Positions 26,700 through 63,965 of a DNA stretch of 64,000 bases are shown one piece after another. Under the pieces are notes generated by a model, which was given only the letters and a program-made list of their open reading frames with translations, did not search any database and was not told the origin of the DNA. The position numbers and the translations under genes were made by a program. The DNA is from Chryseobacterium vaccae. Its GTDB lineage: Bacteria > Bacteroidota > Bacteroidia > Flavobacteriales > Weeksellaceae. The stretch's first letter is position 1. Every line of letters begins with the position of its first letter. The stretch spans positions 2,294,001 to 2,358,000 of the forward strand of contig NZ_VSWH01000001.1 of NCBI RefSeq assembly GCF_009602705.1, read 5' to 3'.

Positions 26700-27008
26700 A
26701 ATAAGTCTTTCAATTTTAATTTACTGGTTTTTATATTTTTTTAACTGCAAAAAATACAGCAGAACTGAATATCGTTCATGAAATAAAAACCAGTAAAATG
26801 AATTTACAAATTTAAGATAAAAAGAGGAACAAATAAAATGCCTGAAAGATTGGGGAGAAATTATTATTTTGTATTTGGGGAACAGAACGTTTTTATTTTT
26901 ATCAGCCATACGAAAGGAATCGTGCGAGAGCGGGGGCTACTCAGAAACGAAACATACAAAGAAAAGAAGCTAACTTTTAAGAGTTGGTTTTATTATTATA
27001 CTCAAAGT
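26700..27008. other. Intergenic edge of the first RHS array
   Basis: No gene. The left half is the AT-rich upstream region of queD. The right half holds the outermost array boundary hairpin (26899-26936) followed by about 70 bp with no feature up to the stop of the first immunity-like gene. Confidence 0.6.
26899..26936. repeat. Cassette-boundary hairpin (outer edge of array 1)
   Basis: TTATCAGCCA, then the stem-loop ACGA-AAGGAA-TCGT, then GCGAGAGCGGGGG. The left part and G-rich right part match the boundary at 28571-28609, whose stem differs. Confidence 0.6.
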
Positions 27009-27467
27009 CTAATCGAACCTCATTGAAGAAGGAGATTTAATAATGACATAGTATTTATCATTTTTAGCAATTTTTGAAAATCTTTTTCTATATTTTTTTT
27101 TATCTAAATTAAATATGTTAATGATAACATATTCTTGGTTTAAATAAACTTTGGGCAAGTTGACAAGATATTTTGAAACAAATACTTTATTAGGTATAAT
27201 CGCTTCAAAACCTATATTTATATTTTGCGATGAAGTATTTAATAAACTTGTATAAAAATTGTCGCTTATATCAACTGATCCAACAGTATATTTAAATTCA
27301 ATCTTTTCTGTAGATGGAGGAATGTTTATATAAAAATTATTTACCGTTAAACATGGTTCTTCATCAATCATGATTAATATATTTAATTTTTTACATTGAG
27401 AATAATATGTCGTCAATATAAAGGAGCAAGCTAAAATTAATACTTTTTTTACTATACTATTTTGCAT
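27009..27467 (-). CDS. Putative exported immunity protein, cassette 1
   Basis: A 152-residue protein with an N-terminal signal peptide (about residues 1-23, ending TTYYSQ). The mature part is beta-rich and has no recognised domain. It overlaps the 3' end of the preceding RHS tip frame by 11 bp, the placing and close coupling expected of a polymorphic toxin's immunity gene. The export signal suggests that the toxin would be blocked in the periplasm or at the envelope. Immunity function is inferred from position only. Confidence 0.55.
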
Positions 27468-28464
27468 TTCTATTCAATATGTTTTTTATTACGGGAACAG
27501 TCAATTTCATTCTAAAAGATCCATCTCTATTATATACTGCCGCACCAACAGATCTGTTATCTTTATAGCTCCCATCACTATTTTTTGTAATATTTGATGA
27601 ATTACCAATCTCTAATCTACCAGCAATTATATTTGTTTGATAAGTTGAAAATGCTACATCATCAACACCTCGAGTTGGAGTTAAAGCATTTAAAGGATAA
27701 AAAGTTCCGCCTGTACCTTCAATAATACCTGTACTATGAGAATGTATACTTGTTGTCGGAACGCCTTGCAAAAGACTATTAAACTTAATATTTGTACTTG
27801 CCGTAGCCATTGCTCCATCTGCGGAGATTGTTGGCGCTGGTCCTGTAGGAGATCTTAAAATATATCCAGTACTCCCAATAGTAGAAGCTTCTTCACTTAA
27901 ACCACCATTATCAGTTTCTCTCTTTATAACGTCTAGTGTTTCAGTAAGCTCATTGTCAAACGGAACAATCATATTAGAATTTAATTCACTTAATTTTTCA
28001 GTAGAAATATGTTCCCCTTTTTTTTCTGCTGCTTTTATTGCTTTTTGATCATCTCTATTAGTTATCATTAATGTTCCTTGTACATCAGTTCCGTCAGTCC
28101 CAATTTTTTTTCCATTTTCATTAACATAGTCAATTGGATCTCTTCCATCTGGATCAATAAATCTAATCGGATTATTAAACGCATAATTATAAGGACTATG
28201 ACGAGTCATCTTCTCCGCCAGCGGATCCACAACACCCCATCTTCCCAAATCCGGCATATACATCCTCGCTCCGTAGTCATACATTCCGGTCTCTTGAAGC
28301 TCTTTCCCGTTGTACTTATACTGATAAGCATTCTGTGTGGTTGCTGTATAATTATGCAGCAATCCAAAAGGATAATAATTATTCACTTCCACAATCTCTC
28401 CCGGTTTCCAACCATCAATACAATTGGGTGGATTTAAAGGGTTCCAAGGTCCGTCACATTGCAC
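27457..28464 (-). CDS. Orphan RHS C-terminal cassette 1 (core fragment plus JAMM-like tip)
   Basis: Promoterless 3' fragment of an RHS gene. Homology to the full-length gene at 30784-34230 begins upstream of the nominal start, at about 28560 ([16 protein letters not shown]), and covers the core end. No normal start codon exists; the frame stays open back through the boundary hairpin, and the nominal first codon is GTG. The hinge reads [24 protein letters not shown] and FIDPDGR. The variable tip (about 230 residues) has HSHS near residue 240 and [10 protein letters not shown] about 25 residues later, a JAMM-like HxH-x(n)-D pattern. Probably silent unless recombined into the active gene. Confidence 0.75.
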
Positions 28465-28570
28465 CCAACGGTATTGTCTTGGCTGAATGAATCCGTCCTT
28501 ATTGGTATCCGTGTAGCTTAATCTTACATTTCCAAGATGATCAGTGTAATTATAGATATAGTGAGTTAAC

Positions 28571-28609
28571 TTTATCAGCCAGACGAAAGGATTCGTATGG
28601 GAGTTGGGA
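28571..28609. repeat. Cassette-boundary hairpin 2
   Basis: TTATCAGCC, stem-loop ACGAA-AGGA-TTCGT (28583-28596), then ATGGGAGTTGGGA, directly abutting the stop codon of the next immunity gene at 28611. The core copy of cassette 1 begins immediately on the left. Confidence 0.7.
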
Positions 28610-28610
28610 A

Positions 28611-29060
28611 TTATTTTAAAGAATCAATAAAAATTAATTTATCTCCTTCTATTTTATACTTATAAACAGGATAAATTATATCAATATGTGGAGGCGTTCC
28701 TTCCAAAATATATGACTTAATGCTATCTTTTTTATAAATTTTCATGAATCTATTACTTAGATTTTGACTATCAATTATATAAGATGGCTTAGTAACCTTA
28801 TCTCTGTAAATACCATAGCTGTTTTTTGAACGAATACCTGTTGGACTAACTGTAATTGTAAGCAATGTATCCCTTGTCTTTGAAAACGAAACTTCATAAA
28901 TGAATAGTTTATACAAGCTTTTATTTGGAATTGGATTTTTTTTCTGATAATTTAATATTTCATTATATAGATTATCATTAAAAAAAACGTCTTCTTTCTT
29001 TGCATTATTACAGCTTATTAATAACCCAAAAACAAATAAATATAAAAGATTTATTTTCAT
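28611..29060 (-). CDS. Putative lipoprotein immunity protein, cassette 2
   Basis: A 149-residue lipoprotein: the signal peptide ends in the lipobox GLLISC at residues 12-17. The mature part has no recognised domain and is rich in Lys and Ile. Its ATG overlaps the stop of the preceding tip frame (29057-29060, ATGA-type overlap), a tight toxin/immunity coupling. It ends exactly at boundary hairpin 2. Immunity role inferred from position. Confidence 0.6.
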
Positions 29061-29757
29061 TTTTTAAAATTTTTGCTATCGTTATTAATTTTCTTTATCA
29101 AATAAACACCAGTTTTAGTTACATTATAAAGATTTGTAGATTTTGGAAAAAATACATAATTAGGATAATTAACATTATAATCTACAGTGTTTCTATAATC
29201 TCCTCCAGGACCATAATATACTCCGTTTCCCCTAGATCCCATAGAGTTCAGTTCCGTGTAATCTTCTTCGTACTTTGTTTTAAAAGGGTGATTATGATAT
29301 TCAGCGTTAGTGCTAACATCTTTTCCTATCTGACCCGACCCTGGTGAAAAACCAGAATCATTATAAGTCTGTAAAGCCAAATATCTCTTTTTTTCCAAAT
29401 TAAAATCTATAAGTGAGAACTCAACATTTTTAGCATTATTGGCTGTATAATGAAATAAATTAAACATATCGTCTTCCACTTGAGAAGTATATTCTTTTAT
29501 AGATTGATGATATGCTTGATATTGATCATCTTTGTTACCATCTCTATAAAACCTTAATTGACCTACTAAACCCTTAGCCTTTATTCTTATTCCATCTTTA
29601 TCAACAAATTTTATAGGATTATTTAAAACATAATTATAACCTGTAAAATCAAAGAATTTCTCCGCGAGCGGATCAATCACACCCCACCTGCATAAGTCAG
29701 GCATATACATTCTGGCTCCATAGTTATACATACTGTCTCTTGTAATTCCTTTCCGTC
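29057..29757 (-). pseudogene. Orphan RHS cassette 2, core remnant frameshifted
   Basis: The open part (29057-29731) encodes [23 protein letters not shown] and the tip. On its 5' side 26 bp of core remain in another frame (KYDGKELQET, 29732-29757), so one base has been lost near 29733 compared with intact copies. Gly to Cys in PDLCRWG is another sign of decay. The tip has HNHP followed about 25 residues later by YYGPGGDYRN, again an HxH...D pattern. The core remnant is only about 90 codons, much shorter than in the other orphans. Confidence 0.7.
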
Positions 29758-29799
29758 ATACTTAAGTAACCTTATAAATACGAGGCTACTTATTTTCTC

Positions 29800-29831
29800 C
29801 CGCACGATTGTATCGTGTAGGAGCAGGGAGA
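29800..29831. repeat. Cassette-boundary hairpin 3
   Basis: Stem-loop CACGAT-TGT-ATCGTG (29803-29817) followed by TAGGAGCAGGGAG. It is preceded by GGCTACTTATTTTC, a spacer sequence also found in array 2 near 57228 and 60658. Confidence 0.65.
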
Positions 29832-29949
29832 ATTTTCATTAATCAAATTTCATAGAATTTAGAGTGTAAGCTACCCAATTTTGTTTCCTACAACTTTTTA
29901 CCATTGTACTTGTAATTATAAATAACCTGATAATATAAAGTAACTTATT
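29832..29949 (-). pseudogene. Vestige of a deleted RHS cassette
   Basis: On the reverse strand, ATTACAAGTACAATGGTAAA and the following bases read YKYNGKKL-stop-ET, matching the core motif [11 protein letters not shown] with one missense change and one nonsense change. No tip or immunity gene accompanies it. Lying between two boundary hairpins, it looks like a cassette whose toxin and immunity parts were lost. Confidence 0.55.
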
Positions 29950-29974: not shown

Positions 29975-30769
29975 TTACCATTCTAAGTTGTCAATTAGTT
30001 TGTCTTTTTCCAAATTTAAAATAGCAATATTATTTATTTTTCCTACTACATTAAATAAAACAAAATAATTAAATTCTTTCAATGGATAATCTTCAGCTAA
30101 TTCATTTGCGTCACTAAAAGATATGAATTTTAGATCCCCCTTTAAATTTTTATAATAAAACTCGTGATTGTTAATAAAGATTAAAGGTCTTGAATATGCT
30201 ATTGTTTTAAATAGATAAACAGAAGGACTATTAAACAATAGTTCTTTAGTTGTTTTTTTATAAATGTAATATTGATTGTTTTGAATATAATAAGAAAAAT
30301 CAGAAGTATTTTCTAATTGCTTAACTATGTTTGGTCGTTCAATTAACAACATTAATACATCATCTATTTGATTAGAGTTTGAACTTTTTAATATTTTGTT
30401 AAAATCTATTTTACTATTAATTTTCTTTCTATTTAGAATAGCAAATTCTATTAGCTTAAGGTTTTCTAATAAGTTAAACTTATTAGATTGCACATGTAAA
30501 AAAATATTTTTTTTAGGAAGAAAAAAATATTCGGTTTGCTTGCTTGGTATCATTTCAAGAAAGATTTCAATAGAATCTGTATAGTTATACTTTTGTGATA
30601 ACTCTTTTACATATTCACCAATTATAATTCCGTTATTAATCTCTTCTCTGTAAGAAAAGCAGGCTATATGGACAGTTATATTTTTAGTAGTATGTTTTAC
30701 AGTAACGCTTTTTCCATAAACATTTATGAAAAAAAAGCTTATCAATAATATTATAATTTGCTTTTTCAT
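29975..30769 (-). CDS. Putative exported immunity protein of the full-length RHS gene
   Basis: A 264-residue protein with a signal peptide (about residues 1-19, ending INVYG) and no recognised domain; it is Lys/Asn/Ile-rich and more AT-rich than its neighbours. It starts 14 bp after the RHS stop codon and is thus probably the last gene of that operon. Its stop codon abuts an eroded boundary hairpin. Role as immunity factor is inferred from placing; an export signal implies protection outside the cytosol. Confidence 0.6.
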   Translation of the reverse strand: MKKQIIILLISFFFINVYGKSVTVKHTTKNITVHIACFSYREEINNGIIIGEYVKELSQKYNYTDSIEIFLEMIPSKQTEYFFLPKKNIFLHVQSNKFNLLENLKLIEFAILNRKKINSKIDFNKILKSSNSNQIDDVLMLLIERPNIVKQLENTSDFSYYIQNNQYYIYKKTTKELLFNSPSVYLFKTIAYSRPLIFINNHEFYYKNLKGDLKFISFSDANELAEDYPLKEFNYFVLFNVVGKINNIAILNLEKDKLIDNLEW

Positions 30770-30783
30770 TTTTGGAAATACTT

Positions 30784-33700
30784 TTATTTTAGGTTGTCCT
30801 GAATATAATTATCTTCTGTTTCTCCTGTTGGAAGCACTTGAGGAGTTATTCTTTCAGTATTTTTATTTGTTGGATTCTTTTTTGAGTTTGGGTCTTTTGG
30901 CATGCTAGTAGAATCCGGTTTCATTTTTCTATCATTAGTTCCATTTTGGGTTCCGGGTCCATATATAAACAAGTAACCTCCAGGAGTTGTAACCATATCT
31001 CCTTCAAAATTTGGATTTTCTTTGGAAGCCTTTACAGACTCTGCAATATCTCCCATTTGGGGTCCGTAATTTGAAGGAGCATCTTGACCAATACCATATT
31101 CTATTTCATCTGCTCTACCATGTGTGTGGCTTATTCCAACCTGAACTGTACCCTTTGGTGGATCTTCTGCAAGATTAGAGTTTACAGCACCTGAATTTGG
31201 GCCTGCTGATATTGGCGTAGTATATGAATAGTAAGTAGTTCCATCAGAATTTACACCTTTATAAAATCTAGTTCCAATTTCACCATTCATTCTGATAGAC
31301 ATATTATTATATTGCTTTCCAAAGTTTTCTCCAGCTTCTTTATATGATTTATGTATAGAATGTGGCTCTAATCCTTCAAGCTCCCTTGCGTCGATTACTC
31401 TATTTCCACTAAAAACATAAGGAGCCCAAGTTGGGTATTTTTCTGCTAGTGGATCAATATTAAAGAAACGCGCTACATCGGGCATATAATTCCTCCACTT
31501 AAAACTATAAAAACCAGTCTCCTGCAACTCTTGTCCTTGAAACTTGTATTGGTAAGCATTCTGTGTGGTTACGGTGTAATTATGCAGCAATCCAAAAGGA
31601 TAATAATTATTCACTTCCACAATCTCTCCCGGTTTCCAACCATCAATACAATTGGGTGGATTTAAAGGGTTCCAAGGTCCGTCACATTGCACCCAACGGT
31701 ATTGTCTTGGCTGAATGAATCCGTCCTTGTTGGTATCCGTGTAGCTTAATCTTACATTTCCTAAATGATCGGTATAATTATAAATGTACTGGCCGTTAAG
31801 TGCATCATAATAACCTTCTGAGGTAGGAATGATTCTGAGTTTCATCTCCGCAACTTCATTTGGATCAGGTAATATAATTCCACCTGTTCCTGCTTCTGAT
31901 GGCTTGGTACTTTTATACTGGAATCCATCCAGATAATTGGTTTCTATATCTCCAAAGAACTTCTTTACTTTTACTCCATCTGCCCTGTAGGTGTAGTTGG
32001 TTACTTTGGTATTCTGGGTAATCTGCTTAGGTAAATTTAAATAATTATACTGAATTGAAGAAATTCCCTTATCCGGATGGCTGGTCATATTCCCATTGCC
32101 GCTGCCATTATCATTGTCATATCCTATTGTACCAGGGCTGGCAAGGTATGGATAGCCTGATGGATTCTGCTGCAAATCGGTTATTTTAGTCAGCTTATTG
32201 CCTGTATAATCATATCTTAAATCATCAATCACAACAGCAGCTGTATTTCCTGTTTGGAGGGCAGCTGATCTTTTCAGCTTTGTGATATTTCCATTCAGGT
32301 CGTACTCTGGCATTTCAAAATATTCATTGGCTGTCTCATTGCCTTGTTTCTGGTAAAATCCTGCTAAAAGACGGTTTAATGGATCATAAACATAACCGTA
32401 TCTTTTTAACGGTTCATTTTCTTCCGTTAAAGTTTTCCAAGATACTTCCGTAATATTTCCGTTGAATTTAGGTCTTACTTTTAAGGTGCTATAGTTACTG
32501 TTCGGGGTTTCCATTCCTTCAACTTGGTTGTAATTGATTTTATAACCAAACAGATCATTTCCCAAATTCGCAGGATCGTTAATTTGTGTCATCCAGCCCC
32601 TGATGTTATACTGATAGTTGATGGTTTGTAATGGTGATCCCACACTGGTTCCTCCAACCTTCTTGGTTTCCAATTGGGAGAGTTCATTGTAGCTGTTTTG
32701 CGACAGAATCTCTTCCGGATTACTGTCTACTTGATGCTTATGAACGAGCTGTCTGTTCTGGTGGTCATACGTAAAGGTTTCAGTAACCACTCTCTCGGTA
32801 TCTGTACTCAGTCTTTTATGCTTTGTCACAGCTTTCTGTACAGCTCCTGCGAAATCAAGTTTGGATTCATTGTGAGTATAACCTCCCAAATGATTGATGG
32901 AATGAGTGCTAATTACTCTTCCTTTGGTATCATAATAAGAGTAGCTTTTGGTCCAGTTATCGTCTTCAATGTTCTTAACCAGGCTCATTACGGCAAGGCC
33001 TTTCGTGCTTCTTCCCTCTGTAGAAGGGGTATCTGTTAAGACTGTTTCCCCTTCAATGCTTGATGGGAAAGAAGGATTGAAGCTATACTGGGGATAAGTA
33101 TCATAATAATTGATACTTAACACAGTCTGTGTGTCAGATGGGAAATAATTATTGGAATAGTAAACAGACATCCCACTTTTAACATAACCTGCTGTACTTC
33201 GGGATTCTGTAATTATTAAATCTTTGATCAGATTTTGAAGGGCTGGTCTTTCTCCTGCTGCAATTATTCCAGTAAGAATAGTTCTTCCAAACTGGTCATA
33301 TTTAGTCATCAACCATTTACCTTGCGTTCTCATCCCTGCATCCTGGGTAAGAATCAAACGGTCTGACTTGTCATACACCATATATTCCCAATCTTTTCCC
33401 GGAAGTTTCTTCTCAACCAAACGGTTTCTACCGTCATAACGGTACTGATAGCAAAGATTTTTGAGCGTGGCTTCATCCAGCGATGCCGCTCCGGAAGCTA
33501 ATGGTGGAAGAACAAAAGCCAACTGATCATATTCATTATAAACATAGTAAGTGTCTGTATTTTTGATTTTGTTGAGCATTTTTCTGACTAAAATGGTCTG
33601 GCCTTTTCCATTCTTGAATTCGATGGTCTTATTGCCGTCTTCATCAATAATTGTGTTTTTATACAACTGTGCAGCACCATAGCTTTCTACAGAACTGAAC

Positions 33701-34230
33701 TCTGATTGGGTAGCTCCGTTTACCCAGGTTGTGGTGACGGTATATTTCCTTACCTCTCCGTCTTCAGAAGCATCATACTCAAATTTCACAGGTTTTCCTG
33801 CCCATGCTGTTCCTACCTGCTTCTGTTCAAGAATACGGTCTAAAGGTGAGTTTTCCAGGACTTTCTCAGCATAGATCTTTTCTGAGCCATAAGGTGTACT
33901 TGAAGCATTAGCCAGTGGATTGGGAACAATAGCACCGTTTAAGGTTCCTGCCTGGGGAATGGGAAGGTATTCTTTAATCTGCCTTCCAAACTCATCATAC
34001 GTGATATGGGTAACCACATCTCTTCCCAGAGGAGAAGCTTTTACATTAACAACCTGTTTGGGCCTTCCAAGACCATCAACATACTGAACGGTTTCTAATG
34101 TTTTGGAAGGCTGGGTTCCGTTATAATCAAGGTAGGTCTTGGACTGGACGTAATTTTCTGTATCGGTAAGCTGGCCATGGGCTAAGCCAGAGAGCAGCAG
34201 GGTACCTATCGGGATAATGTATTTTTTCAT
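30784..34230 (-). CDS. Full-length RHS/YD-repeat protein with DUF6443 and variable C-terminal tip
   Basis: A 1148-residue exported protein with a signal peptide ending GLAHGQ (about residue 20). The N-terminal part matches DUF6443 (LETVQYVDGLGRPKQVV at about residues 45-61); YD/RHS repeats fill about residues 200-800; the RHS-associated core ends with DHLGN at 821-825, YPFG, then the hinge GFYSFKWRNYMPDVARF and DPLAEKYPTWAPYVF. The tip (from about residue 950) has HTHG near 1034 and PQMGD near 1057, a JAMM-like pattern. The RHS shell probably encloses the tip until delivery. It follows the partner gene by 5 bp and precedes the immunity gene by 14 bp. Confidence 0.85.
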   Translation of the reverse strand: MKKYIIPIGTLLLSGLAHGQLTDTENYVQSKTYLDYNGTQPSKTLETVQYVDGLGRPKQVVNVKASPLGRDVVTHITYDEFGRQIKEYLPIPQAGTLNGAIVPNPLANASSTPYGSEKIYAEKVLENSPLDRILEQKQVGTAWAGKPVKFEYDASEDGEVRKYTVTTTWVNGATQSEFSSVESYGAAQLYKNTIIDEDGNKTIEFKNGKGQTILVRKMLNKIKNTDTYYVYNEYDQLAFVLPPLASGAASLDEATLKNLCYQYRYDGRNRLVEKKLPGKDWEYMVYDKSDRLILTQDAGMRTQGKWLMTKYDQFGRTILTGIIAAGERPALQNLIKDLIITESRSTAGYVKSGMSVYYSNNYFPSDTQTVLSINYYDTYPQYSFNPSFPSSIEGETVLTDTPSTEGRSTKGLAVMSLVKNIEDDNWTKSYSYYDTKGRVISTHSINHLGGYTHNESKLDFAGAVQKAVTKHKRLSTDTERVVTETFTYDHQNRQLVHKHQVDSNPEEILSQNSYNELSQLETKKVGGTSVGSPLQTINYQYNIRGWMTQINDPANLGNDLFGYKINYNQVEGMETPNSNYSTLKVRPKFNGNITEVSWKTLTEENEPLKRYGYVYDPLNRLLAGFYQKQGNETANEYFEMPEYDLNGNITKLKRSAALQTGNTAAVVIDDLRYDYTGNKLTKITDLQQNPSGYPYLASPGTIGYDNDNGSGNGNMTSHPDKGISSIQYNYLNLPKQITQNTKVTNYTYRADGVKVKKFFGDIETNYLDGFQYKSTKPSEAGTGGIILPDPNEVAEMKLRIIPTSEGYYDALNGQYIYNYTDHLGNVRLSYTDTNKDGFIQPRQYRWVQCDGPWNPLNPPNCIDGWKPGEIVEVNNYYPFGLLHNYTVTTQNAYQYKFQGQELQETGFYSFKWRNYMPDVARFFNIDPLAEKYPTWAPYVFSGNRVIDARELEGLEPHSIHKSYKEAGENFGKQYNNMSIRMNGEIGTRFYKGVNSDGTTYYSYTTPISAGPNSGAVNSNLAEDPPKGTVQVGISHTHGRADEIEYGIGQDAPSNYGPQMGDIAESVKASKENPNFEGDMVTTPGGYLFIYGPGTQNGTNDRKMKPDSTSMPKDPNSKKNPTNKNTERITPQVLPTGETEDNYIQDNLK

Positions 34231-55279: not shown

Positions 55280-55350
55280 AGACTCATGGTGTAGCGGTAA
55301 CACTACTGATTTTGGTTCAGTCATCTGGGGTTCGAATCCCTGTGAGTCTA
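55280..55350 (+). tRNA. tRNA-Gln (anticodon TTG)
   Basis: 71-nt cloverleaf without encoded CCA. Acceptor AGACTCA pairs with TGAGTCT, discriminator A. D arm GGTGTAGCGGTAACAC; anticodon arm ACTGA-TTTTGGT-TCAGT with TTG at the anticodon; T arm CTGGGGTTCGAATCCCTG region. TTG reads CAA glutamine codons. The second RHS array begins about 110 bp downstream. Confidence 0.92.
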
Positions 55351-55398: not shown

Positions 55399-55463
55399 GC
55401 TGTATATTGAGTTCTACCCTTTATTTTTTAAGATAATGAAGGCAAAAATAGAAAATCACTTAT

Positions 55464-55495
55464 CAGCTCAAAGTCAGGAGACTTTGCCAGCGGGG
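55464..55495. repeat. Cassette-boundary hairpin, outer edge of array 2
   Basis: CAGCTC, stem-loop AAAGTC-AGGA-GACTTT (55470-55485), then GCCAGCGGGG. It is joined directly to the core remnant at GTGGTCTCTATAC, within the codons of the DHLGN motif. Confidence 0.65.
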
Positions 55496-55541
55496 TGGTC
55501 TCTATACCGGTAAATATAGCGGTTTTCCTAAACCTGTATAT
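55496..55541 (-). pseudogene. Truncated RHS core end
   Basis: On the reverse strand it reads ENRYIYRYRDH and stops being core-like at the boundary hairpin. It is the same stretch that opens the orphans at 57103, 59065, 60546 and 63860, so this is the cut-off start of another cassette. Confidence 0.6.
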
Positions 55542-55569
55542 AAAAACCACTACAGATGCAGTGGTTTTT
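55542..55569. terminator. Conserved terminator-like hairpin, copy 1
   Basis: AAAAACCACT pairs with AGTGGTTTTT across ACAGATGC; A- and T-runs on both strands. The same hairpin lies 40-60 bp before the DHLGN codons of all class-B orphans. Confidence 0.75.
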
Positions 55570-55578
55570 ATTTTTATT

Positions 55579-55610
55579 AGCTCAAAATCAGGAGACTTTG
55601 CGCAGTTTGG
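55579..55610. repeat. Cassette-boundary hairpin, array 2, position 2
   Basis: AGCTCAAAATCAGGAGACTTTGCGCAGTTTGG: near relative of the hairpin at 55464 with one arm decayed (AAATC). It abuts the stop codon of the lipoprotein gene at 55611. Confidence 0.65.
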
Positions 55611-56150
55611 TTATTCTTGACAGTCTTCCAATTTACTATTAAAGCCTAGTAATTGTTTTATTTCCCGTGTCTTGTTCCCCATACAAATAAAATAAATTTT
55701 CCCATTCTCATCAAATCTGATCCCTAAATGAGGTGGAGAATCATATATTATATTTTTATTAAAGGGTTTTGAATTAAATGGTTTAGATGGTTTAGTATTT
55801 TTAAAATATTTATATAGAAGGTCTTTATTTTCAATATTATCCGTAATTGTTACAACTTTGTATCCTTTATATTGAATAACAGAATCATTGTCTGTGATAA
55901 CGCCGTCGCATTCAAAACAATTATATGAAAGACTAAGAATTTTATTTTTGGGATTTTCACTTTCAGATGATAAACCCATTAACAAATATGTTTTTGTTGG
56001 ATTAAATATTTTACCTTTTGATGTATTGTAATCTATATAAGTATCAACAATATTATTTATATTAATTTTCTGAGCTGAACAGCTACAGACAAATATTATA
56101 ATAAATAATAATGAAAAAAAATTATTCAAAACTTGTGCTTTTACTATCAT
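55611..56150 (-). CDS. Putative lipoprotein immunity protein, array 2 cassette A
   Basis: A 179-residue lipoprotein; hydrophobic segment at about residues 8-22 and a lipobox-like VCSCS at about 21-25. The mature part has two cysteines in YNCFECDG and one in FICMGN. No known domain. Its start overlaps the 3' end of the tip frame by 29 bp, the coupling typical of toxin/immunity pairs, and its stop abuts a boundary hairpin. Function inferred from position. Confidence 0.55.
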   Translation of the reverse strand: MIVKAQVLNNFFSLLFIIIFVCSCSAQKININNIVDTYIDYNTSKGKIFNPTKTYLLMGLSSESENPKNKILSLSYNCFECDGVITDNDSVIQYKGYKVVTITDNIENKDLLYKYFKNTKPSKPFNSKPFNKNIIYDSPPHLGIRFDENGKIYFICMGNKTREIKQLLGFNSKLEDCQE

Positions 56151-57150
56151 AATTCATATACTTTTTTAACTGAGGAATATAAACTCTTAATTTTACATTA
56201 GGATTACTTTTTGCTACATTTATATCACAACCTCCTAGTAGACAACGGACATCACCACTAGGTCTAAATCCTTTTGAATACGACTCAAATTCACTTGCTG
56301 GATTCCATATAGGCCCATCGTCAGGATGATTATGATCCTGTGCAAATAATGTACTTGGGTAAAAATAATCACCATTAACAGAAAAATTAGACATACCCAA
56401 GCTTTTTGCATCAAAAGGTGATGCTGTAGGCAGATGAAAAGTACCAACTACCGAAAAAATACCTTTAGAACCTTTAAATGAAGCATTTGATGATTCTACA
56501 ATCGTATTATTATACATATTCTGCAACTTCTTGAGCTTTAGCTTCATTATTATAGAAACTTAGGGTTGTCATCTTATCCGAAAAATTACCTTCTGAATCT
56601 TTTATAGGAGTCTTTAATTTAACTTCTTGCTTATTTGCAACAATGTATCCTTTTTCCCCAACTTCAACACCTCTGTCATTATTTTCTTTTAGATTTCCAG
56701 AACTATCAAAATTATTCTCCGAATAAATCACATCTGTTTTAGATTCAGCCATCCAAGTAAGATTACCCAGCTTATCTAATTTATAAATATCTGTAGCTTC
56801 TCTACCATCAGGATCAATAAACCTGACAGGACTATTAAAAGCATAGTTATAAGGACTATGTCTTTTCATCTTCTCTGCAAGCGGATCCACCACACCCCAT
56901 CTTCCCAAATCCGGCATATACATCCTGGCTCCATAATCATACATTCCTGTTTCCTGCAGCTCCTTACCGTTGTACTTATAACTAAGATAGCTTCCTAACT
57001 TCCCTTTGGAGATCTGACCGTCAATATGGTTCAGACCAAAAGGATAATAATTGTTCACATCCGTTATTTCAAGAGCGCCATCGCTGTTTTTGACATAGCT
57101 CACCCTTGCATTGCCCAGATGGTCTGTGTACTGGTAAATATAGCGGTTTT
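56122..57150 (-). pseudogene. Orphan RHS cassette A with frameshifted JAMM-like tip
   Basis: The core fragment (from about 57150, YENRYIYQYTDHLGNARVSY) and the hinge [18 protein letters not shown], then FIDPDGREATDIY, run to a stop at 56510. The rest of the tip lies in another frame (56122-56547), beginning NNTIVESS. Comparison with cassette B (EYISNNVDAEF) shows that one base was lost near 56505-56520. The second frame carries DHNHPDDG and, about 20 residues on, RPSGDVRC, matching HxHP...D of JAMM peptidases. Probably inactive unless repaired by recombination. Confidence 0.7.
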
Positions 57151-57165
57151 CTTAAACCTAATTAT

Positions 57166-57193
57166 AAAAACCACTACAGATGCAGTGGTTTTT
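57166..57193. terminator. Conserved terminator-like hairpin, copy 2
   Basis: AAAAACCACT/AGTGGTTTTT as at 55542, at the 5' side of orphan cassette A. Confidence 0.75.
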
Positions 57194-57202
57194 ATTGTTA
57201 AA

Positions 57203-57274: not shown

Positions 57275-57320
57275 AGAAACTAGGCTGTCTTTTGCAAAGA
57301 GAGCCTGATTATTTTTTATT

Positions 57321-57354
57321 GGCTCAAAATCAGAGACCTGCATAGCAGGGGAAT
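57321..57354. repeat. Cassette-boundary hairpin, array 2, position 3
   Basis: GGCTCAAAATCAGAGA, then CCTGC-ATA-GCAGG and GGGAAT, 16 bp before the stop of the fused cassette at 57371. Confidence 0.6.
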
Positions 57355-57370: not shown

Positions 57371-59010
57371 TTACTTTTTAACCTTTATTATTTCTCCGTT
57401 CTCACGAAATTGATACAATTTTAAGGATGAAAACTTGCTTAGAAACCTCTTGTATTTTTGTGGTTTAGCTACTTCAGATTCAATAAAACCTCCATTAATA
57501 TTATCAATTACACCATCATTATTAATTCCTATTAGCCATACTTTTCCTTTATAATCCAAAATAAAAGAATTAGCTTCTTCATCTAATAATTTTATTGATG
57601 AATTAACTTTTTGGAAATTAATTCTATTAAAAAAATCATTACATTTTCCATTTTCAAAAAAACCACAAAAAATTAGAATATTAGCCCTACCGTATTTAAA
57701 CCAATTATACCTTGATGTTTTTTTATAAATTTCAAAGTTTTCAGGAAAAACTTCTATTGCCAACCAAGTTGTTGAAGTTGTGACATTTGTTGAATCACTA
57801 TATATATGAACTCCAACAATTCCATTATAGTTTACATAATCATCAACGTACATTTTAATTAATTTTTCAGTAATAATTGAAATTTTATCTGATTTTTGAG
57901 CAGAAATCATAACGTTTCCAAATATGAAAATTATCAATATATAATTTTTCATTTTATTTATTTTTTTATAATATCCATTTCTGATAGATTTTATTCCTTT
58001 TCCATCATATGTTGATGTTTTTGGACCAGAAGTATAATTAGGATTGTACATAAATAATGTTGCAGTTTCCGGGAAGGCTTTGCTGGAAATATAATCTCCA
58101 TTAGTCAAATCTTTCCCTACACTAATATTTTTAAATTCATTTGACTTACTATTTAGTAGTAAAATCTGATATCCGCTAGGTCCAATTTCATATACATTAT
58201 CAGGATGATTATGTCCAAACAAAGTAATTGAATTGCTACCAAAATAATTTATAAAAGGGTATATTGACACTGCCCCCGAAGTTGCTGGCTTATCCAATGC
58301 CCCATCTTTTCCTATTATTGATTTTTGACTGCCATCTTTTAAGCCTGTTGCTACTATAAATTCTGCATCTACGTTATTAGAAATATACTCATGTACTCCT
58401 AAGGCTTTGTCCTCATTATCAAAATCAATTAAGCTATATGTCTGGTTACTTCCATTAGAGTATTCTACATTTCCTGTTGTTGTATGCTTAGCAATATAAC
58501 CTTGCTCTCCAACATCTACGCCTTCATCATTTTTCGCCTTAAGATTTCCACTACTATCAAAGTTTTCTGAAGCATAAATAACATCTCTATCTGATTCCTT
58601 CTTCCATATTAGGCTACCATTCCTATTTAACTCATATATATCTTTAGATTCCCTTCCATCTGGATCAATAAATCTAACAGGATTATTAAATGCATAATTA
58701 TAAGGTGACCAACGTCTGGAGGTTTCCGCCAGCGGATCTACAACACCCCATCTTCCCAAATCCGGCATATACATCCTCGCCCCATAATCATACATTCCTG
58801 TTTCCTGTAATTCTTTTCCGTTGTACTTATAACTAAGATAACCTCCTAATTTTCCTTTGGAAATCTGTCCTTCAATATGGTTGAGACCAAAAGGATGATA
58901 GTTGTTCACATCGGTTATTTCAAGAACACCTGCGCTGTTTTTGGTATAGCTCACCCTTACATTGCCAAGATGATCTCTGTATTGGTAAATATAGCGGTTT
59001 TCGTAAACCT
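57371..59010 (-). CDS. Orphan RHS cassette B: tip fused in frame to its exported partner
   Basis: One frame carries the core fragment (YENRYIYQYRDHLGNVRVSY), hinge [18 protein letters not shown], the linker FIDPDGRESKDIYELNRNGS, a tip with GHNHPDNVYEIGPSGYQ, and then, at about 57952, a signal peptide (MKNYILIIFIFGNVMISAQ) and a 193-residue exported protein. In the tip, Gln replaces the Asp expected in PSxxD-like motifs. A run of seven A on the reverse strand (57961-57967) follows the codons YYKK; with six A the tip would stop there (AAA TAA). So tip and immunity were probably separate genes joined by a +1 slip. Confidence 0.75.
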
Positions 59011-59016
59011 GTATAT

Positions 59017-59045
59017 AAAAAACCACTACAAATGCAGTGGTTTTT
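59017..59045. terminator. Conserved terminator-like hairpin, copy 3
   Basis: AAAAACCACT/AGTGGTTTTT with loop ACAAATGC, at the 5' side of cassette B. Confidence 0.75.
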
Positions 59046-59055
59046 GTGTTTCCAT

Positions 59056-59088
59056 CATGGCACAAGCGTGACGCTTGCGCCAGCTGGT
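59056..59088. repeat. Cassette-boundary hairpin, array 2, position 4
   Basis: CATGGCA, stem-loop CAAGCG-TGA-CGCTTG (59063-59077 region), then CGCCAGCTGG, 10 bp before the stop of the SUKH gene. A second copy is at 60746-60780. Confidence 0.7.
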
Positions 59089-59098
59089 GAAAGAATAT

Positions 59099-59578
59099 TT
59101 ATATGAATATTTCTTCAGGATTATTAAGGTATATATCTATAAAATCATCAAAACTATTAGCAATAACTTTATACTCTTCTCCACAAAAAATGAAAATCCG
59201 GTTTGTAGAAGACCATGTATTAAATAACTCTATTCCAAAAGAATAAAAATTAAATTCATAGTTTCCAAAAATAAAAACATTTTCAAATTTTTGAAAATCT
59301 AACTTACTATAATCTGGCACTCCGTCCCAATCTTTAAATTCATTAAATATTCTACTGACCCTATCAATACTATAAAATTCATATAGATTATCTAATGGAA
59401 TATCATTACTGCCATTTATTAGTATAAAATATTGTTTAAGATCTGAAGGAATTAATACTGCATTATTATTTTGAAATTGATGTATTTTTAAATCATCAAC
59501 GGTTGTAAAATTATTTACACCTTCATTTACAAAATGTTTTTTTAATAAAGTTGATTGGTTTTGTTCTTTATCCTCCAT
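59099..59578 (-). CDS. SUKH/SMI1-KNR4-like immunity protein, cassette C
   Basis: A 159-residue cytosolic protein resembling the SUKH superfamily, common immunity proteins of bacterial polymorphic toxins: a helix with LIPSDLKQYFILINGS (about residues 57-72), the strand turn FIFGNYEFNFYSFGIEL (about residues 98-114), and a C-terminal IANSFDDFIDIYLNNPEEIF. No signal peptide, unlike most other partners here, so its toxin should act in the cytosol. It starts 3 bp after the tip stop. Confidence 0.7.
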   Translation of the reverse strand: MEDKEQNQSTLLKKHFVNEGVNNFTTVDDLKIHQFQNNNAVLIPSDLKQYFILINGSNDIPLDNLYEFYSIDRVSRIFNEFKDWDGVPDYSKLDFQKFENVFIFGNYEFNFYSFGIELFNTWSSTNRIFIFCGEEYKVIANSFDDFIDIYLNNPEEIFI

Positions 59579-59581: not shown

Positions 59582-60585
59582 TTATTTTAAAGCTTTATTA
59601 ATCATTTCTAGTCTTTGAGTTTGAATTTTAAGAGCTGTTTCAGTAGCTTTACCTGCGGGAGCACCTCCAGTCCCATTAACAATTCTTGTAGCTAGTTCCT
59701 TATAGGTTTGTAGAGCTTTTTTACTTACAATTTCTTTACCTCCAGATTTGAAGAAAGCATTCATTTCAGTAGAATAGCCTTTTACTGTAACTTGTAATTC
59801 TTTAAAACCTATTTTTTTTAGGTTATTTATGAACATTTTCTCACTGAAAATTCTTACTCCTGCTTTTCCTCCTACACCTCCAATAAAATAAGAGCCTACT
59901 TCTACTCCAGTTTTAAGTTCTTTATCCAATACTGGGTCATACTCTTTATGTTCTACAAAATAATCGTCGTCACCACCAAAAAATGAATTAATAGCATTTC
60001 CAATCTCGGCTCCTAAATTCCCTGTATTTTATGATATTTTTTTCCATCAATAGTAACTATTTCTTTTAAGGAATCTTCTTCAGACATTCCTTTACTAGAT
60101 CCTGCTTTTCGATCATTTTTCTTTTTAGGATCATCTTCGCCACCGTCAAATGTTCCATTCCCATTATTAGTCCAAGTACTAGAGCCTGAAGTATTATCCC
60201 ACATTTCTTGTAAAGAACTGACAGAAAGCATCCCATCAGGGTCGATAAACATTATGGGATTATTGTAAGCGTAATTATAAGGATTCCATCTTTTAGAAAC
60301 TTCCGCCAATGGATCTATAACACCCCATCTTCCCAAATCCGGCATATACATCCTCGCTCCATAGTCATACATACCTGTCTCTTGCAACTCTTTACCGTTG
60401 TACTTATAACTAAGATAGCCTCCTAATTTTCCTTTGGAAATCTGCCCGTCAATATGGTTCAGACCAAAAGGATAATAATTGTTCACATCCGTTATTTCAA
60501 GAGCGCCATCGCTGTTTTTGGCATAGCTCACCCTTGCGTTGCCCAAGTGGGCTCTATACTGGTAAATATAATGGTTTTCGTAAAC
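59582..60585 (-). pseudogene. Orphan RHS cassette C, frameshifted tip
   Basis: The 5' frame (from about 60585; core DHLGN changed to AHLGN, then ARVSYAKNSDG, hinge [26 protein letters not shown]) stops at 60013 after KYHKIQGI. The next frame reads on as NLGAEIGNAINSFFGG and, without a normal start codon, continues into the tip to 59582. One missing base near 60018 restores a single frame. The tip lacks the HxH motif of the others and is Lys/Thr/Ala-rich, so it is a different toxin type; SUKH partner follows. Confidence 0.7.
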
Positions 60586-60594
60586 CTGTATATA

Positions 60595-60620
60595 AAACCA
60601 CTACAAATGCAGTGGTTTTT
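60595..60620. terminator. Conserved terminator-like hairpin, copy 4
   Basis: AAAACCACT/AGTGGTTTTT with loop ACAAATGC, at the 5' side of cassette C. Confidence 0.7.
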
Positions 60621-60629: not shown

Positions 60630-60708
60630 GGCGCAAAGTCAGGATAATTTACAACTTTGGCTACTTATTTATCTTACTCCGAAGTTTGAAACTTCGGAGA
60701 GCAAGGGA
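60630..60708. repeat. Spacer with two boundary-hairpin scars
   Basis: GCGCAAAGTCAGGATAATTT, GGCTACTTATTTATCTTACT and CCGAAGTTTGAAACTTCGG followed by AGAGCAAGGGA. Parallel to 57203-57274. A decayed AACCACT-type hairpin (CACCAC...GTGG) follows at about 60712-60734. Confidence 0.6.
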
Positions 60709-60745
60709 AAAATCACCACATTTGCAGTGGCTTTATTATTGTCAT

Positions 60746-60780
60746 CATGGCACAAGCGTGACGCTTGCGCCAGCTGGGGG
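60746..60780. repeat. Cassette-boundary hairpin, array 2, position 5
   Basis: CATGGCA, stem CAAGCG-TGA-CGCTTG, CGCCAGCTGGGGG; directly against the stop of the membrane immunity gene at 60782 with one base between. Same stem as at 59056. Confidence 0.7.
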
Positions 60781-60781
60781 A

Positions 60782-61117
60782 TTATATATATTCAGAAGTT
60801 AAAAATCCATAAACCAATCTAATGAAAATATATAAATAATATATAGTTATAAAACAAATAGGAATTAATGAAATCTTAATATTTCTTTTATTGTTACAAC
60901 TTTTACTGATACTAAAATTAAATATTGAAATACCTAAGAAAACGGCTGTTCCCGGTATAAAGCAAAATAGATTAAATGTTGTTTTAATTTTTTTATAAAA
61001 ATATTCATTGGATTGAAAAAATTCATATCCTATATAATTTACAGATATAAATATTACAATAAATATTATAAAAAAGATTAAAATATAGTTAGGGCTAAGC
61101 ATTTTTTTTATATTCAT
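60782..61117 (-). CDS. Putative membrane immunity protein, cassette D
   Basis: A 111-residue protein with three membrane helices (about residues 11-30, 47-66 and 82-104). No known domain. It ends at a boundary hairpin and starts 22 bp from the end of the IS3-family element that replaced or interrupted its toxin tip. A membrane-sited partner is consistent with protection at the inner membrane; the function is inferred from position only. Confidence 0.5.
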   Translation of the reverse strand: MNIKKMLSPNYILIFFIIFIVIFISVNYIGYEFFQSNEYFYKKIKTTFNLFCFIPGTAVFLGISIFNFSISKSCNNKRNIKISLIPICFITIYYLYIFIRLVYGFLTSEYI

Positions 61118-61208
61118 AATTTTTATTTTCCGGTCATTATGTAAACTTCCCTAAAAATGTGTCCATTTAAAGATAGAGTTTTTGGCTTAAAAAACTTTAA
61201 ATTTAAAT

Positions 61209-61475
61209 ATGAAAAAGAGTAAGTATTCAGAGAGTCAGGTTTTTGGAATTTTGAAAGAACAGGAACTTGGTAAAAGTGTAATAGAGATATGCCGTAATCA
61301 TGGCATTACGCAAGGTACTTTCTATCGTTGGAAGAGTAAATATTCAGGTATGGAAAGTTCGGATATTCAAAAGATGCGAGATCTGGAGTCCGAAAATTCT
61401 AAGCTTAAGAAACTTTATGCCGAACGATGTTTAGAGATTGAAGCTTTAAAAGATGTTTTGTCAAAAAAGTGGTAA
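61209..61475 (+). CDS. IS3-family OrfA
   Basis: An 88-residue DNA-binding protein: KYSESQVFGILKEQELGKSV and GITQGTFYRWKSKYSG form the helix-turn-helix, followed by a leucine-zipper-like helix (LESENSKLKKLYAERCLE). It ends 6 bp into orfB. The run AAAAAAG at 61463-61469 is placed in frame as A-AAA-AAG, a standard -1 slippery heptamer, so an OrfAB fusion transposase should be made by programmed frameshifting. Confidence 0.85.
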   Translation: MKKSKYSESQVFGILKEQELGKSVIEICRNHGITQGTFYRWKSKYSGMESSDIQKMRDLESENSKLKKLYAERCLEIEALKDVLSKKW

Positions 61476-62290
61476 AGCCTTCTGTACAGCGTGAAATTGT
61501 CAACTTTATTTGTAAGAAATACCATTTAAGTGAGCGTAGAAGTTGTTTGACAATAGGTATCAGTAGGCGAAGTTACCGTTACACAAGCATTAAAAATGAC
61601 GATGAATTAATTGAAGTTTTGACACAACTTTCACAAGATCATCCAGGTTATGGTTTTTGGAAGCTCTATCATAAGCTTCGGGATTTGGGATATATTTGGA
61701 ATCACAAACGGGTTCATAGAGTCTATGTAGCTTTAAATATGAGTATTCGCAGAAGGGTAAGAAAAAGGCTTCCCACCAGAGTCAAAGAAAGTATTAATAT
61801 TCCTTTAGAACCTGATGAATGCTGGAGTATGGATTTTATGAGCGATAGTTGGTATGATGGGAGAAGATTCAGAATATTAAATATTGCTGATGATTATAAC
61901 CGGGAATTACTGTCCATGGAAATTGATACAAGTATCTGCTCTGCAAGAGTAGTAAGGGTTTTAAATAGTTTAAAACAACAAGGACGCAAGCCTAATGATA
62001 ATGGACCTGAATTTATATCTAAAAATCTTCAGCTATGGGCTCAGGAAAATAAAATAGAAATTCATTATATACAGCCTGGAAAACCAACACAAAATAGCCT
62101 TATTGAAAGACTGAACAAAAGCTGCAGAAATGAACTTCTCAATATGTATGTCTTTAAAAGTTTACAAGACGCAGAAGAAAAAGCAAATCAATGGTGGATA
62201 GAATATAACTATAATAGCCCCCACGAAGCATTAGGGAACATAAGTCCTAAAAAATATAAACAAAAAATGAAAGAAGAATCTATCATTTAG
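61469..62290 (+). CDS. IS3-family OrfB (DDE transposase domain)
   Basis: A 273-residue integrase-type domain in the -1 frame from orfA; its first codon is the GTG just after the slippery run, so it is mainly the fusion partner. HTH_21 near the start (LSERRSCLTIGISRRSYRY), then rve domain: Asp in WSMDFMSD, Asp in NDNGPEF, Glu in NSLIERLN, giving D-D-E. The segment GRKPNDNGPEF is shorter than the usual run before DNGPEF, where several residues such as xxIRxDNGPEF are expected, so a small in-frame deletion is possible. Confidence 0.82.
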   Translation: MVKPSVQREIVNFICKKYHLSERRSCLTIGISRRSYRYTSIKNDDELIEVLTQLSQDHPGYGFWKLYHKLRDLGYIWNHKRVHRVYVALNMSIRRRVRKRLPTRVKESINIPLEPDECWSMDFMSDSWYDGRRFRILNIADDYNRELLSMEIDTSICSARVVRVLNSLKQQGRKPNDNGPEFISKNLQLWAQENKIEIHYIQPGKPTQNSLIERLNKSCRNELLNMYVFKSLQDAEEKANQWWIEYNYNSPHEALGNISPKKYKQKMKEESII

Positions 62291-62336
62291 AATGGAAACA
62301 AAATTGGGGAGCTTACATGTAATAGCCACGACTTTA

Positions 62337-63502
62337 TCTGACAGTTAGGGGTTAAAAATAATTGTCAGTTATCCAATATTATCCTTACTTCCAAAAGTAA
62401 GGATTTTTTGTTCCTCTGCAAGAGTTTCCAATAATTTCTCTTTTGCAATAGTTTTACTATCTAGAAACGTCTGCATCGGTGTTTTACCGTAACAATGTTT
62501 TCCTGTATGCGTTCTTTCATTGTTGTAATACGACAACCAGCTGTTCAGGTCTAATTGCAGTTCTTCAATACTTCTGTAAATTTTCTTTCTGAAAGCTATG
62601 GCATAAAACTCGTCCTGTATCGTCCTGTGAAAACGTTCACAAATACCATTGGTCTGAGGGCTTTTAGCCTTGGTCTTCGTATGATCGATATCTTCAATGG
62701 CCAAATAGAGCTGGTATTCATGCTGTTCTCTTATTCCACAGTATTCCGTTCCTCGGTCTGTTAAAATTCTGAGTAAACGAAGTTCCTGCTGCTCAAAGAA
62801 AGGGACTACCTGATCATTAAGCATGTCAGCAGCAATAAGAGCATTTTTACGGTCATATAGCTTTGCAAATACTACCTTTGAATATGTATCAATAAAAGTT
62901 TGTTGATAAATATGTCCAACTCCTTTGATATTGCCTACGTAATAAGTGTCTTGAGCTCCTAAATATCCAGGATGATGAGTTTCAATTTCTCCATGAGCTT
63001 TTTTCTCTTCCTTAGCCCTTTCTAGTGCTGAAAGTTGAGATTCAGTAAGGACTACACCATCTTGAGCAGATTTGGCTTCTAGGGCTTTCAATCTTAGTTT
63101 AAACGTATGTAGATCGTGTCTTAACCAAATACTTCTGACTCCACCTGGTGATACAATGAAACCTTTCTTTTTAAGTTCATTACTTACTCTAAGCTGCCCC
63201 AAAGCAGGGTTTTCAATAGCTATATCAACAACAGCTTTTTCAATGACTTCATCTACACGATTCTTTAATACTGGCTTTCTTCTGGAGATTTCCTGTAATG
63301 CTAATTCACCTCCTTGCTCATACAATTCTTTAAATCTATAAAAACTGTCTCGGGAATAGCCCATCACCTTACAGGCTTTGGATACGTTTCCTAAATGTTG
63401 TGCTAATTCAAGTACGCCTAACTTGTTTTTGATAATCTTTTGTTGTGTTGTCATAATACTTAATCTGTTTTAAAGTTATTTAATTTGATTATAACTGTCA
63501 GA
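62337..63502 (-). mobile_element. IS481-like insertion sequence
   Basis: TCTGACAGTTA at 62337-62347 is repeated inverted at 63492-63502. The flanking triplet TTA is present on both sides (62334-62336 and 63503-63505), a possible 3-bp target duplication. It encodes one transposase and has interrupted an RHS orphan shortly after the FIDPDGRE hinge. Confidence 0.75.
62369..63454 (-). CDS. IS481-family transposase
   Basis: A 361-residue DDE transposase. N-terminal helix-turn-helix (KNKLGVLELAQHLGNVSKAC, then MGYSRDSFYRFKELY), helical linker, and rve domain with Asp in QTFIDTYSKVVF, Asp in LTDRGTEYCG and Glu in NGICERFHRTIQ. Single complete frame, so the element may still be able to move. The length is typical for the family. 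Confidence 0.88.
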   Translation of the reverse strand: MTTQQKIIKNKLGVLELAQHLGNVSKACKVMGYSRDSFYRFKELYEQGGELALQEISRRKPVLKNRVDEVIEKAVVDIAIENPALGQLRVSNELKKKGFIVSPGGVRSIWLRHDLHTFKLRLKALEAKSAQDGVVLTESQLSALERAKEEKKAHGEIETHHPGYLGAQDTYYVGNIKGVGHIYQQTFIDTYSKVVFAKLYDRKNALIAADMLNDQVVPFFEQQELRLLRILTDRGTEYCGIREQHEYQLYLAIEDIDHTKTKAKSPQTNGICERFHRTIQDEFYAIAFRKKIYRSIEELQLDLNSWLSYYNNERTHTGKHCYGKTPMQTFLDSKTIAKEKLLETLAEEQKILTFGSKDNIG

Positions 63503-63518
63503 TTAAGTATTGACTAAT

Positions 63519-63895
63519 TCAGCTTACAATATGTGTTCCTTCTCTTCCATCCGGATCAATAAACATGATAGGATTATCAAATGTATAATTATAAGGACTA
63601 TGCCTCGTCATCTTTTCCGCCAGCGGATCCACCACACCCCATCTTCCCAAATCCGGCATATACATCCTCGCTCCATAGTCATACATACCTGTCTCTTGCA
63701 ACTCTTTACCGTTGTACTTATAACTAAGATAGCCTCCTAATTTTCCTTTGGAAATCTGCCCGTCAATATGGTTCAGACCAAAAGGATAATAATTGTTCAC
63801 ATCCGTTATTTCAAGAGCGCCATCGCTGTTTTTGGCATAGCTCACCCTTGCGTTGCCCAAGTGGTCTCTATACTGGTAAATATAATGGTTTTCGT
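63519..63895 (-). pseudogene. Orphan RHS cassette D, tip lost to insertion sequences
   Basis: Core fragment from about 63895 (YENHYIYQYRDHLGNARVSY), hinge [18 protein letters not shown], and FIDPDGREGTHIVS, then stop, where sequence from the insertion-sequence flank begins. The remaining tip is absent; the membrane protein at 60782-61117 is its likely former partner, on the far side of both insertion sequences. The core part is almost identical to that of cassette C (60360-60595). Confidence 0.7.
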
Positions 63896-63906
63896 AAACC
63901 TGTACA

Positions 63907-63935
63907 TAAAAACCACTACAGATGCAGTGGTTTTT
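63907..63935. terminator. Conserved terminator-like hairpin, copy 5
   Basis: AAAAACCACT/AGTGGTTTTT with loop ACAGATGC, at the 5' side of cassette D. Confidence 0.75.
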
Positions 63936-63942
63936 ATGTTTA

Positions 63943-63965
63943 TTAGCGCAAAGTCAGGAGACTCA
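63943..63965. repeat. Partial cassette-boundary hairpin at window edge
   Basis: TTAGCGCAAAGTCAGGAGAC resembles the hairpins at 55464 and 60630, but the right arm is changed (GACTCA). It should mark the end of a further cassette lying beyond the window. Confidence 0.5.

Follow-up and report, generated by a model that had tools for sequence, protein, structure and literature searches.

Hairpins of the RHS cassette row

The stretch of DNA analysed here, called the window, comprises 64,000 nucleotides (positions 2294001-2358000) of the 5.1-Mb genome of Chryseobacterium vaccae. Its minus strand carries RHS genes and small putative immunity open reading frames (ORFs; the ORF calls are mechanical and crude throughout), and between these lie hairpins with variable stems and a recurrent, bidirectional terminator-like hairpin. 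The variable hairpins are the subject of this report and are considered probable REP (repetitive extragenic palindromic) sequences of RAYTs (REP-associated tyrosine transposases, also termed TnpA-REP). A phmmer search with the RHS core P0001 returned seven core matches on the minus strand, one of them inside a long RHS gene, and the terminator-like hairpins are perfect inverted repeats of 9-14 bp:

28153-28563, minus strand: RHS core match
29600-29743, minus strand: RHS core match, truncated copy
30784-34230, minus strand: long RHS gene (DUF6443, Pfam PF20041) of 1148 aa, with the ORF 29975-30769 downstream
31405-31788, minus strand: RHS core match inside the long RHS gene
56813-57142, 58664-58993, 60241-60573 and 63555-63887, minus strand: RHS core matches
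55540-55571, both strands: bidirectional terminator-like hairpin AAAACCACT...AGTGGTTTT
57164-57195, 59018-59045, 60594-60619 and 63904-63939: other terminator-like hairpins

The variable hairpins were located with R1, a covariance model trained on the copies from RHS loci, which matches nine places in the window at an expect value (E) of 10 or lower, all on the minus strand; in three more rows the same palindromes are read from the plus strand.

26897-26938, minus strand: putative REP hairpin with ACGA-type stem (29.0 bits), 70 bp past the stop codon of the ORF 27009-27467
28571-28611, minus strand: putative REP hairpin of the ACGA type with a decayed head (weak match, 19.5 bits, E 0.42), abutting the stop codon of the ORF 28611-29060 and the RHS core copy 28153-28563
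29791-29831, minus strand: putative REP hairpin of the ACGAT type (38.0 bits), 48 bp from the truncated RHS core copy 29600-29743
55458-55498, minus strand: putative REP hairpin of the AAAGTC type (27.3 bits), with the nearest minus-strand stop codon 112 bp off
55572-55613, minus strand: putative REP hairpin of the AAAGTC type with a decayed head (26.8 bits), at the stop codon of the ORF 55611-56150
57314-57353, minus strand: decayed putative REP of the AAAGTC type (weak match, 17.9 bits, E 0.83), 17 bp past the stop codon of the ORF 57371-59065
59051-59091, minus strand: putative REP hairpin with CAAGCG stem (35.7 bits), 7 bp past the stop codon of the ORF 59099-59578, a SUKH-1-like putative immunity ORF (Pfam PF09346)
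60669-60709, minus strand: hairpin with CCGAAGTTT stem and CCCTTGCT head (29.1 bits)
60741-60781, minus strand: putative REP hairpin with CAAGCG stem (44.9 bits), directly past the stop codon of the small ORF 60782-61117

Five of the nine places have a stop codon within 25 bp (gaps of -3, -1, 0, 7 and 17), not the eight positions given in the initial annotation, and at the other four it is 70-143 bp away.

In the orientation of the RHS genes, the element consists of a C-rich head ending in CGCT and, after it, a stem of 10 bp closed by a loop of 3-4 nt; the stem types include GGCGCGAGCG, GGCGCAAGCG, GCCGCACGAA, CCGCACGAT, GCGCAAAGTC and CTCCGAAGTTT. Among 102 full-length R1 matches from RAYT loci the C-rich head likewise ends in GCT, with G at 99%, C at 94% and T at 100% in the last three places. 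The changes in the stems are compensatory, as had been proposed from the window itself: in an alignment of 38 sequences (A2) 92.6% of the cells are paired against 66.3% after shuffling, and covariation is 0.684 against 0.216, with the qualification that the rows were selected for having a stem, so that these pairing figures are biased upward, and that two of the five measures used (pairs changed on both sides and further pair types) are no better than in the shuffles. The copies from RAYT loci, in an alignment fitted to R1 (A6), are 97.1% paired with a covariation of 0.429 against 0.147 when shuffled. Because the A2 rows had been chosen for their stem, the stem test was redone from the heads alone in 68 related RHS loci, which derive from the best 80 of 405 matches to the partial RHS core of the window and come from Chryseobacterium except for one Sphingobacterium metagenome-assembled genome (67 and one, respectively); the related genomes are not independent of each other. 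Of the heads CCCC.GCT picked regardless of pairing, 23 of 48 on the RHS-sense strand are followed by a stem, compared with 0/23 on the antisense strand, 1/48 in shuffled sequence and 0/23 in 540 kb of control DNA. For the looser head CCC..GCT the corresponding counts are 38/116, 2/70, 5/116 and 0/93.

These counts and the nine R1 places support the original description, in which hairpins at the ends of RHS cassettes differ in their stems but share an AGCnGGGG-like flank. The flank is, however, a poor marker when taken by itself: AGCNGGGG occurs 250 times in the genome (59 times for a reversed-pattern control), and it was dropped as a candidate dispersed repeat since only two of its 22 occurrences in a 400-kb sample, judged by eye, stand at a hairpin. 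One of the stems listed initially, CCTGC-ATA-GCAGG, turned out to be a chance pairing of the head with the decayed AAAGTC-type copy at 57314-57353. Some other copies in the genome also have decayed heads or stems.

RAYT genes flanked by the same hairpins

Hairpin clusters in related genomes contain RAYT genes, and the same hairpins flank these genes, so that looking for such a transposase, as suggested early on, proved fruitful. Around 50 RAYT loci, made up of the 30 best matches in the genus and 20 picked among the matches listed, the hairpin is found on both sides of the gene with its head outward in 42 cases, on one side in five and on neither side in three; two weak hairpin rows were left out of this tally, which does not affect the 42/50. 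Three hairpin-adjacent RAYTs, belonging to the clades ACGA and CGAGC only, were scanned with the model NF047646 (REP_Tyr_transpos), and all three match it at 82.2-86.7 bits with a cut-off of 80. Inverted hairpin pairs that enclose RAYT remnants in a REPIN-like arrangement are seen at the loci L192 and L204. At two further loci (L244 and L266) compensated innermost pairs (ACGAT/ACGAA and GAGCT/GAGCA) distinguish the hairpin on one side of the RAYT from that on the other, a difference that may mark left and right ends.

The stem type follows the phylogeny of the transposases. In a tree of 47 of the 50 RAYTs, from which three interrupted ones were excluded, 24 are associated with ACGA stems, 15 with CGAGC, five with AAAGTC and three with other stems; each stem type corresponds to one side of one well supported branch, which requires three label changes, the minimum, whereas shuffled labels require 20 on average and none of 200 shuffles came as low as three. 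The AAAGTC and other clades are joined by long branches, about which the tree program gave a warning. As the stem type tracks the RAYT clade, the variable stem is best seen as a set of families, each with its own transposase, and the head as the part they share, and stem recognition becomes testable by swapping. To judge from their stem sequences, the copies in the window represent three or more RAYT families (ACGA, AAAGTC and GAGC/AAGC stems) and a fourth type with the CCGAAGTTT stem. No RAYT of this fourth type, which is represented at 60669-60709 and at the loci L153 and L147 and has a similar C-rich head, was found among the RAYT loci.

The RAYTs resemble subclass 2.6 of Quentin et al. 2018 (PMC6006769), described in the accessible text of that paper as found mostly in Bacteroidetes, equated with Bertels group 5, and characterized by a median HuH-Y distance of 82, the HuH motif NH[LIV]H, the Y motif YIH[QN]NP, SS in the tail and the W motif WQ. 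The HuH-Y spacing is 81-83 in all 39 of the 47 RAYTs in which both motifs were matched, the Y motif is Y[IV]HQNP in 33, YIHLNP in five and YVHENP in one (the pattern was not found in eight), tail SS is present in 38 of the 47, and HxH is preceded by S in 29 and by N in 18. For the W motif the search pattern matched other FW places in some of the RAYTs; in four aligned ones the tryptophan is followed by R or Q. By their sequences the RAYTs are thus close to, and not identical with, the published consensus, and from the fit of spacing and motifs the hairpins are best filed with the REPs of subclass 2.6. The same paper, as far as its accessible part goes, reports that these RAYTs are flanked by atypical secondary structures without GT[AG]G that have copies elsewhere in the genome, which agrees with the present case in the Bacteroidetes host, the HuH-Y spacing, the Y motif, the gene-flanking hairpins, their genomic copies and the absence of a GT[AG]G foot. 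The CGCT head, the match of stem and clade and the placement after immunity-type genes do not appear in its accessible text, although the head may stand in its Table S1. What is added here is a description at the sequence level of Bacteroidetes RAYT REPs, which the accessible text calls atypical (PMC6006769).

Two other published systems share some of these properties. The GTAG- and CGTC-tagged palindromes in the accessible part of PMC3733652 likewise combine a constant tag at one end with family-specific stems, and the GTAG ones are tied to RAYTs; the head found here is neither GTAG nor CGTC, nor apparently the GGGGWSAS motif of the terminal inverted repeat elements treated there. Proteobacterial RAYTs are similarly paired with their own REPs, most of which start with GTAG or GTGG according to the accessible text of PMC2817692, and they differ from the present ones in head, host phylum and genomic niche.

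Genomic placement and orientation

In the C. vaccae genome R1 gives 24 matches at E ≤ 10, corresponding to 21 places after removal of three reverse readings of palindromes. For thirteen of these the distance to an RHS core is at most 1.4 kb (seven are in the window, three close outside it, two near 2.10 Mb and one at 3.67 Mb), and the 14-20 kb surrounding the other eight (at 227248, 540950, 1413158, 1415585, 1416372, 1421754, 2596522 and 2606845) contain no RHS core. In the region of 1403001-1423000, around 1.41 Mb, a row of immunity-like genes was recognized by eye, several of one family, with hairpins between the genes and no RHS core, and the row is possibly an orphan immunity array. A regular 400-kb sample taken together with the window (464 kb) has R1 matches at E ≤ 0.1 only in the window and in the stretches L020, L021 and L022, of which L021 had been deliberately placed adjoining the window, and weaker matches in L031 (E 1.7) and L029 (E 5.6); two of the 20 stretches of the regular sample hold RHS cores, and these are L020 and L021. 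Within the genus 56 of 59 genomes have R1 matches at E ≤ 0.1, with 0-38 per genome under stricter filters, and in a draw across the order, the own genus included, matches at E ≤ 0.01 are present in 64 of 196 genomes, representing 18 of the 60 genera. R1 gave no match at E ≤ 1 in control DNA (200 kb, drawn from the same genomes), which argues against the hairpins being equally frequent after ordinary genes, a check that the initial annotation had proposed.

The surroundings were compared in 69 clusters from the genus, composed of 29 best-per-genome loci and 40 others, all hand-picked among the matches listed; 29 of the clusters have only 1.5 kb of flank. Of these clusters 35 are within 3 kb of an RHS core, a share that is prone to bias from this choice, and seven are beside a RAYT; an RHS core is present in one of 20 control windows (Fisher p 1.7e-4 against 35/69). 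The sampled copies are largely extragenic, as 63 of the 69 fall outside ORFs of at least 80 aa. In the 68 related RHS loci, 85 of 92 hairpins point in the RHS direction. These 92 hairpins stand against 192 RHS core copies, with at least one hairpin in 39 of the loci, and copies in relatives also adjoin RAYT genes and other genes; together with the eight RHS-free places of the own genome this gives no support to the proposal that the hairpins are markers of cassette ends in themselves.

Outside RAYT loci the gene before the head runs towards the hairpin in 52 of 62 cases (p 5.7e-8), namely 33 of 35 near RHS genes and 19 of 27 elsewhere in a hand-counted split. A folding scan found a terminator-like hairpin within 80 nt downstream of 20 of the 35 RHS-near copies, two of the 27 others and 41 of 146 control stop codons, and within 80 nt upstream in four of the 62; a simple, strict terminator scan gave 15/62 downstream and 2/62 upstream. 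The sequences on the two sides of the element also behave differently. Over 55 pairs of like REPs, the 30 nt preceding the model are 30% identical, against 62% for the 30 nt that follow it, and at least 70% identity over 30 nt is reached in no pair on the gene side and in 21 of the 55 on the other side. The REP and its downstream sequence are therefore often shared as a block, next to a gene side that is unique. Counts of Pfam families among the genes that precede the hairpins give 34 families in 56 genes (six of the 62 upstream ORFs were omitted), compared with 78 in 60 control genes, which suggests that these genes are poorly known and nothing beyond that.

Origin of the hairpins

The explanation that best accounts for these results, with a probability of roughly 0.85, is that the hairpins are REP sequences of RAYT transposases of the Bacteroidetes subclass 2.6, that the REPs of the C. 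vaccae genome are leftovers, and that their placement results from deposition followed by hitch-hiking with the cassettes. At the level of sequence it is carried by the hairpin that is shared with RAYT ends, its inverted flanking of the RAYT genes, the match of stem and clade, the orientation and the enrichment near RHS genes; a short palindrome forming one hairpin is also what is expected of a REP. Published RAYT work suggests that the transposase would recognise the REP as a single-stranded hairpin, copy it and rejoin it. The C-rich head ending in CGCT would then occupy the position of GTAG in proteobacterial REPs, and the stem would be the family-specific recognition part, which would give each RAYT clade a stem of its own; stems would stay paired because only paired copies get mobilised. 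The REPs may have entered the accessory toxin-immunity cassettes while RAYTs were active, either in the own lineage or in donors, and a REP with its terminator and the next RHS core would be inherited as a block when cassettes duplicate, recombine or are transferred. Deposition by RAYTs in accessory cassettes that subsequently spread would accordingly explain the position of the REPs behind immunity genes. The feature is therefore real and in kind belongs to a known system, whereas its niche after immunity-type genes appears to be new; no published link between RAYT or REP and Rhs immunity cassettes was found in a literature search made mostly without subscription papers. A transposase-made repeat would in this way be tied to polymorphic toxin cassettes, and exchange on the 3' side of cassettes becomes testable.

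Several observations weigh against this origin. The copy number is low for a REP, with 21 places in the own genome and 0-38 in the 59 genomes of the genus, and there is no GT[AG]G foot, although subclass 2.6, as described in the accessible text, is also without it (PMC6006769). A search with an alignment of four RAYTs, two of them identical, matches 89 of 169 genus genomes at E ≤ 1e-10 and leaves 80 without a match, yet hairpins are present in 56 of 59. In the C. vaccae genome this search found no intact RAYT of this kind at E ≤ 1e-10, only an N-terminal RAYT fossil at 1397683 near decayed hairpins, so that a RAYT gene with inverted flanking hairpins is seen in relatives only. The two canonical Y1_Tnp genes (PF01797) of this genome, at 498638-498982 and 5020263-5020601, have no adjoining R1 hairpin and were rejected as its partners, the link having emerged only from the clusters of relatives; beside the former a different palindrome, GGAGCTCCGTAGGAGCG..., was noticed by eye. 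At the three loci that have the hairpin on neither side (L287, L290 and L292) RAYTs of the same protein group, forming a clade, are accompanied, by eye, by another palindrome (like GTCGCGGATTTGCAATCCGTGAC) with no CGCT head, which is a head switch within the group. The single control window with an RHS core has no hairpin. The weakest point is that passive hitch-hiking alone does not explain the orientation bias (85/92 and 52/62), which therefore leaves room for a role in RNA or in recombination; replication direction is another possible cause.

A role in RNA, in which the hairpin would be a structure in the 3' untranslated region of the immunity transcript that blocks exonucleases or read-through and is for this reason kept in sense between stop codon and terminator, is unlikely but the least so of the alternatives. 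It would account for the genes running towards the head and for the terminator-like hairpins that follow the RHS-near copies and seldom precede any, and a G-U pair near the stem foot on the sense strand would also fit. The same G-U is present, however, in 80 of 83 distinct rows from RAYT loci, so that the mismatch, G-T in DNA, is a property of the REP itself and the argument for RNA is weakened, and a kept structure agrees poorly with the decayed heads or stems of some own-genome copies. Function as an ordinary intrinsic terminator is very improbable. The nearness to stop codons at five of the nine places in the window would be consistent with it, but the sampled copies, by eye, mostly have A-rich sequence and not a T-run after the stem, a separate terminator-like hairpin often lies further downstream, and inverted copies flank RAYT genes. 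Among the functions that the initial annotation had left open, the terminator thus falls away and a transposition signal holds in kind, through the flanking of RAYTs.

The units of gene and hairpin, with a variable stem and a constant flank, also recall the attachment sites (attC) of integron gene cassettes, but the occurrence of the hairpins as inverted ends of RAYT genes makes such an assignment even harder to credit than a terminator. Active driving of cassette turnover by the REP, either through hairpin-directed single-strand cleavage by the RAYT or through homologous recombination across shared REP-terminator blocks, is improbable, somewhat more so than a role in RNA. The similarity between like REPs, which on the gene side stops at the head but on the other side continues, the frequency of RHS cores near the clusters relative to control windows, and the small ORFs, immunity-like by eye only, that alternate with hairpin pairs at L192 and L194 would all suit it. 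Many cassettes, however, have no hairpin, given 92 hairpins for 192 cores, no cassette was seen bounded by an outward-facing REP pair, and a mobile unit would need inverted ends where 85 of the 92 hairpins share one direction. It is to the same degree doubtful that the gap between the immunity stop codon and the terminator is where REPs from three or more RAYT clades come together, in a preferred orientation, as the 3' joint of cassette shuffling, be it through the RAYT system or through the shared REP-terminator block.

An Rfam scan of the window gave a single match, a tRNA gene on the plus strand at 55280-55350, which borders the RHS cassette row; tRNA genes are a usual place of island integration. 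Two transposase-like genes lie between the 60.7 kb cassette and the RHS core at 63.5 kb, one at 61209-62290 on the plus strand and one at 62369-63454 on the minus strand. The latter has matches to integrase core domains, and the former, by eye only, has the appearance of an IS3-type (insertion sequence) pair.

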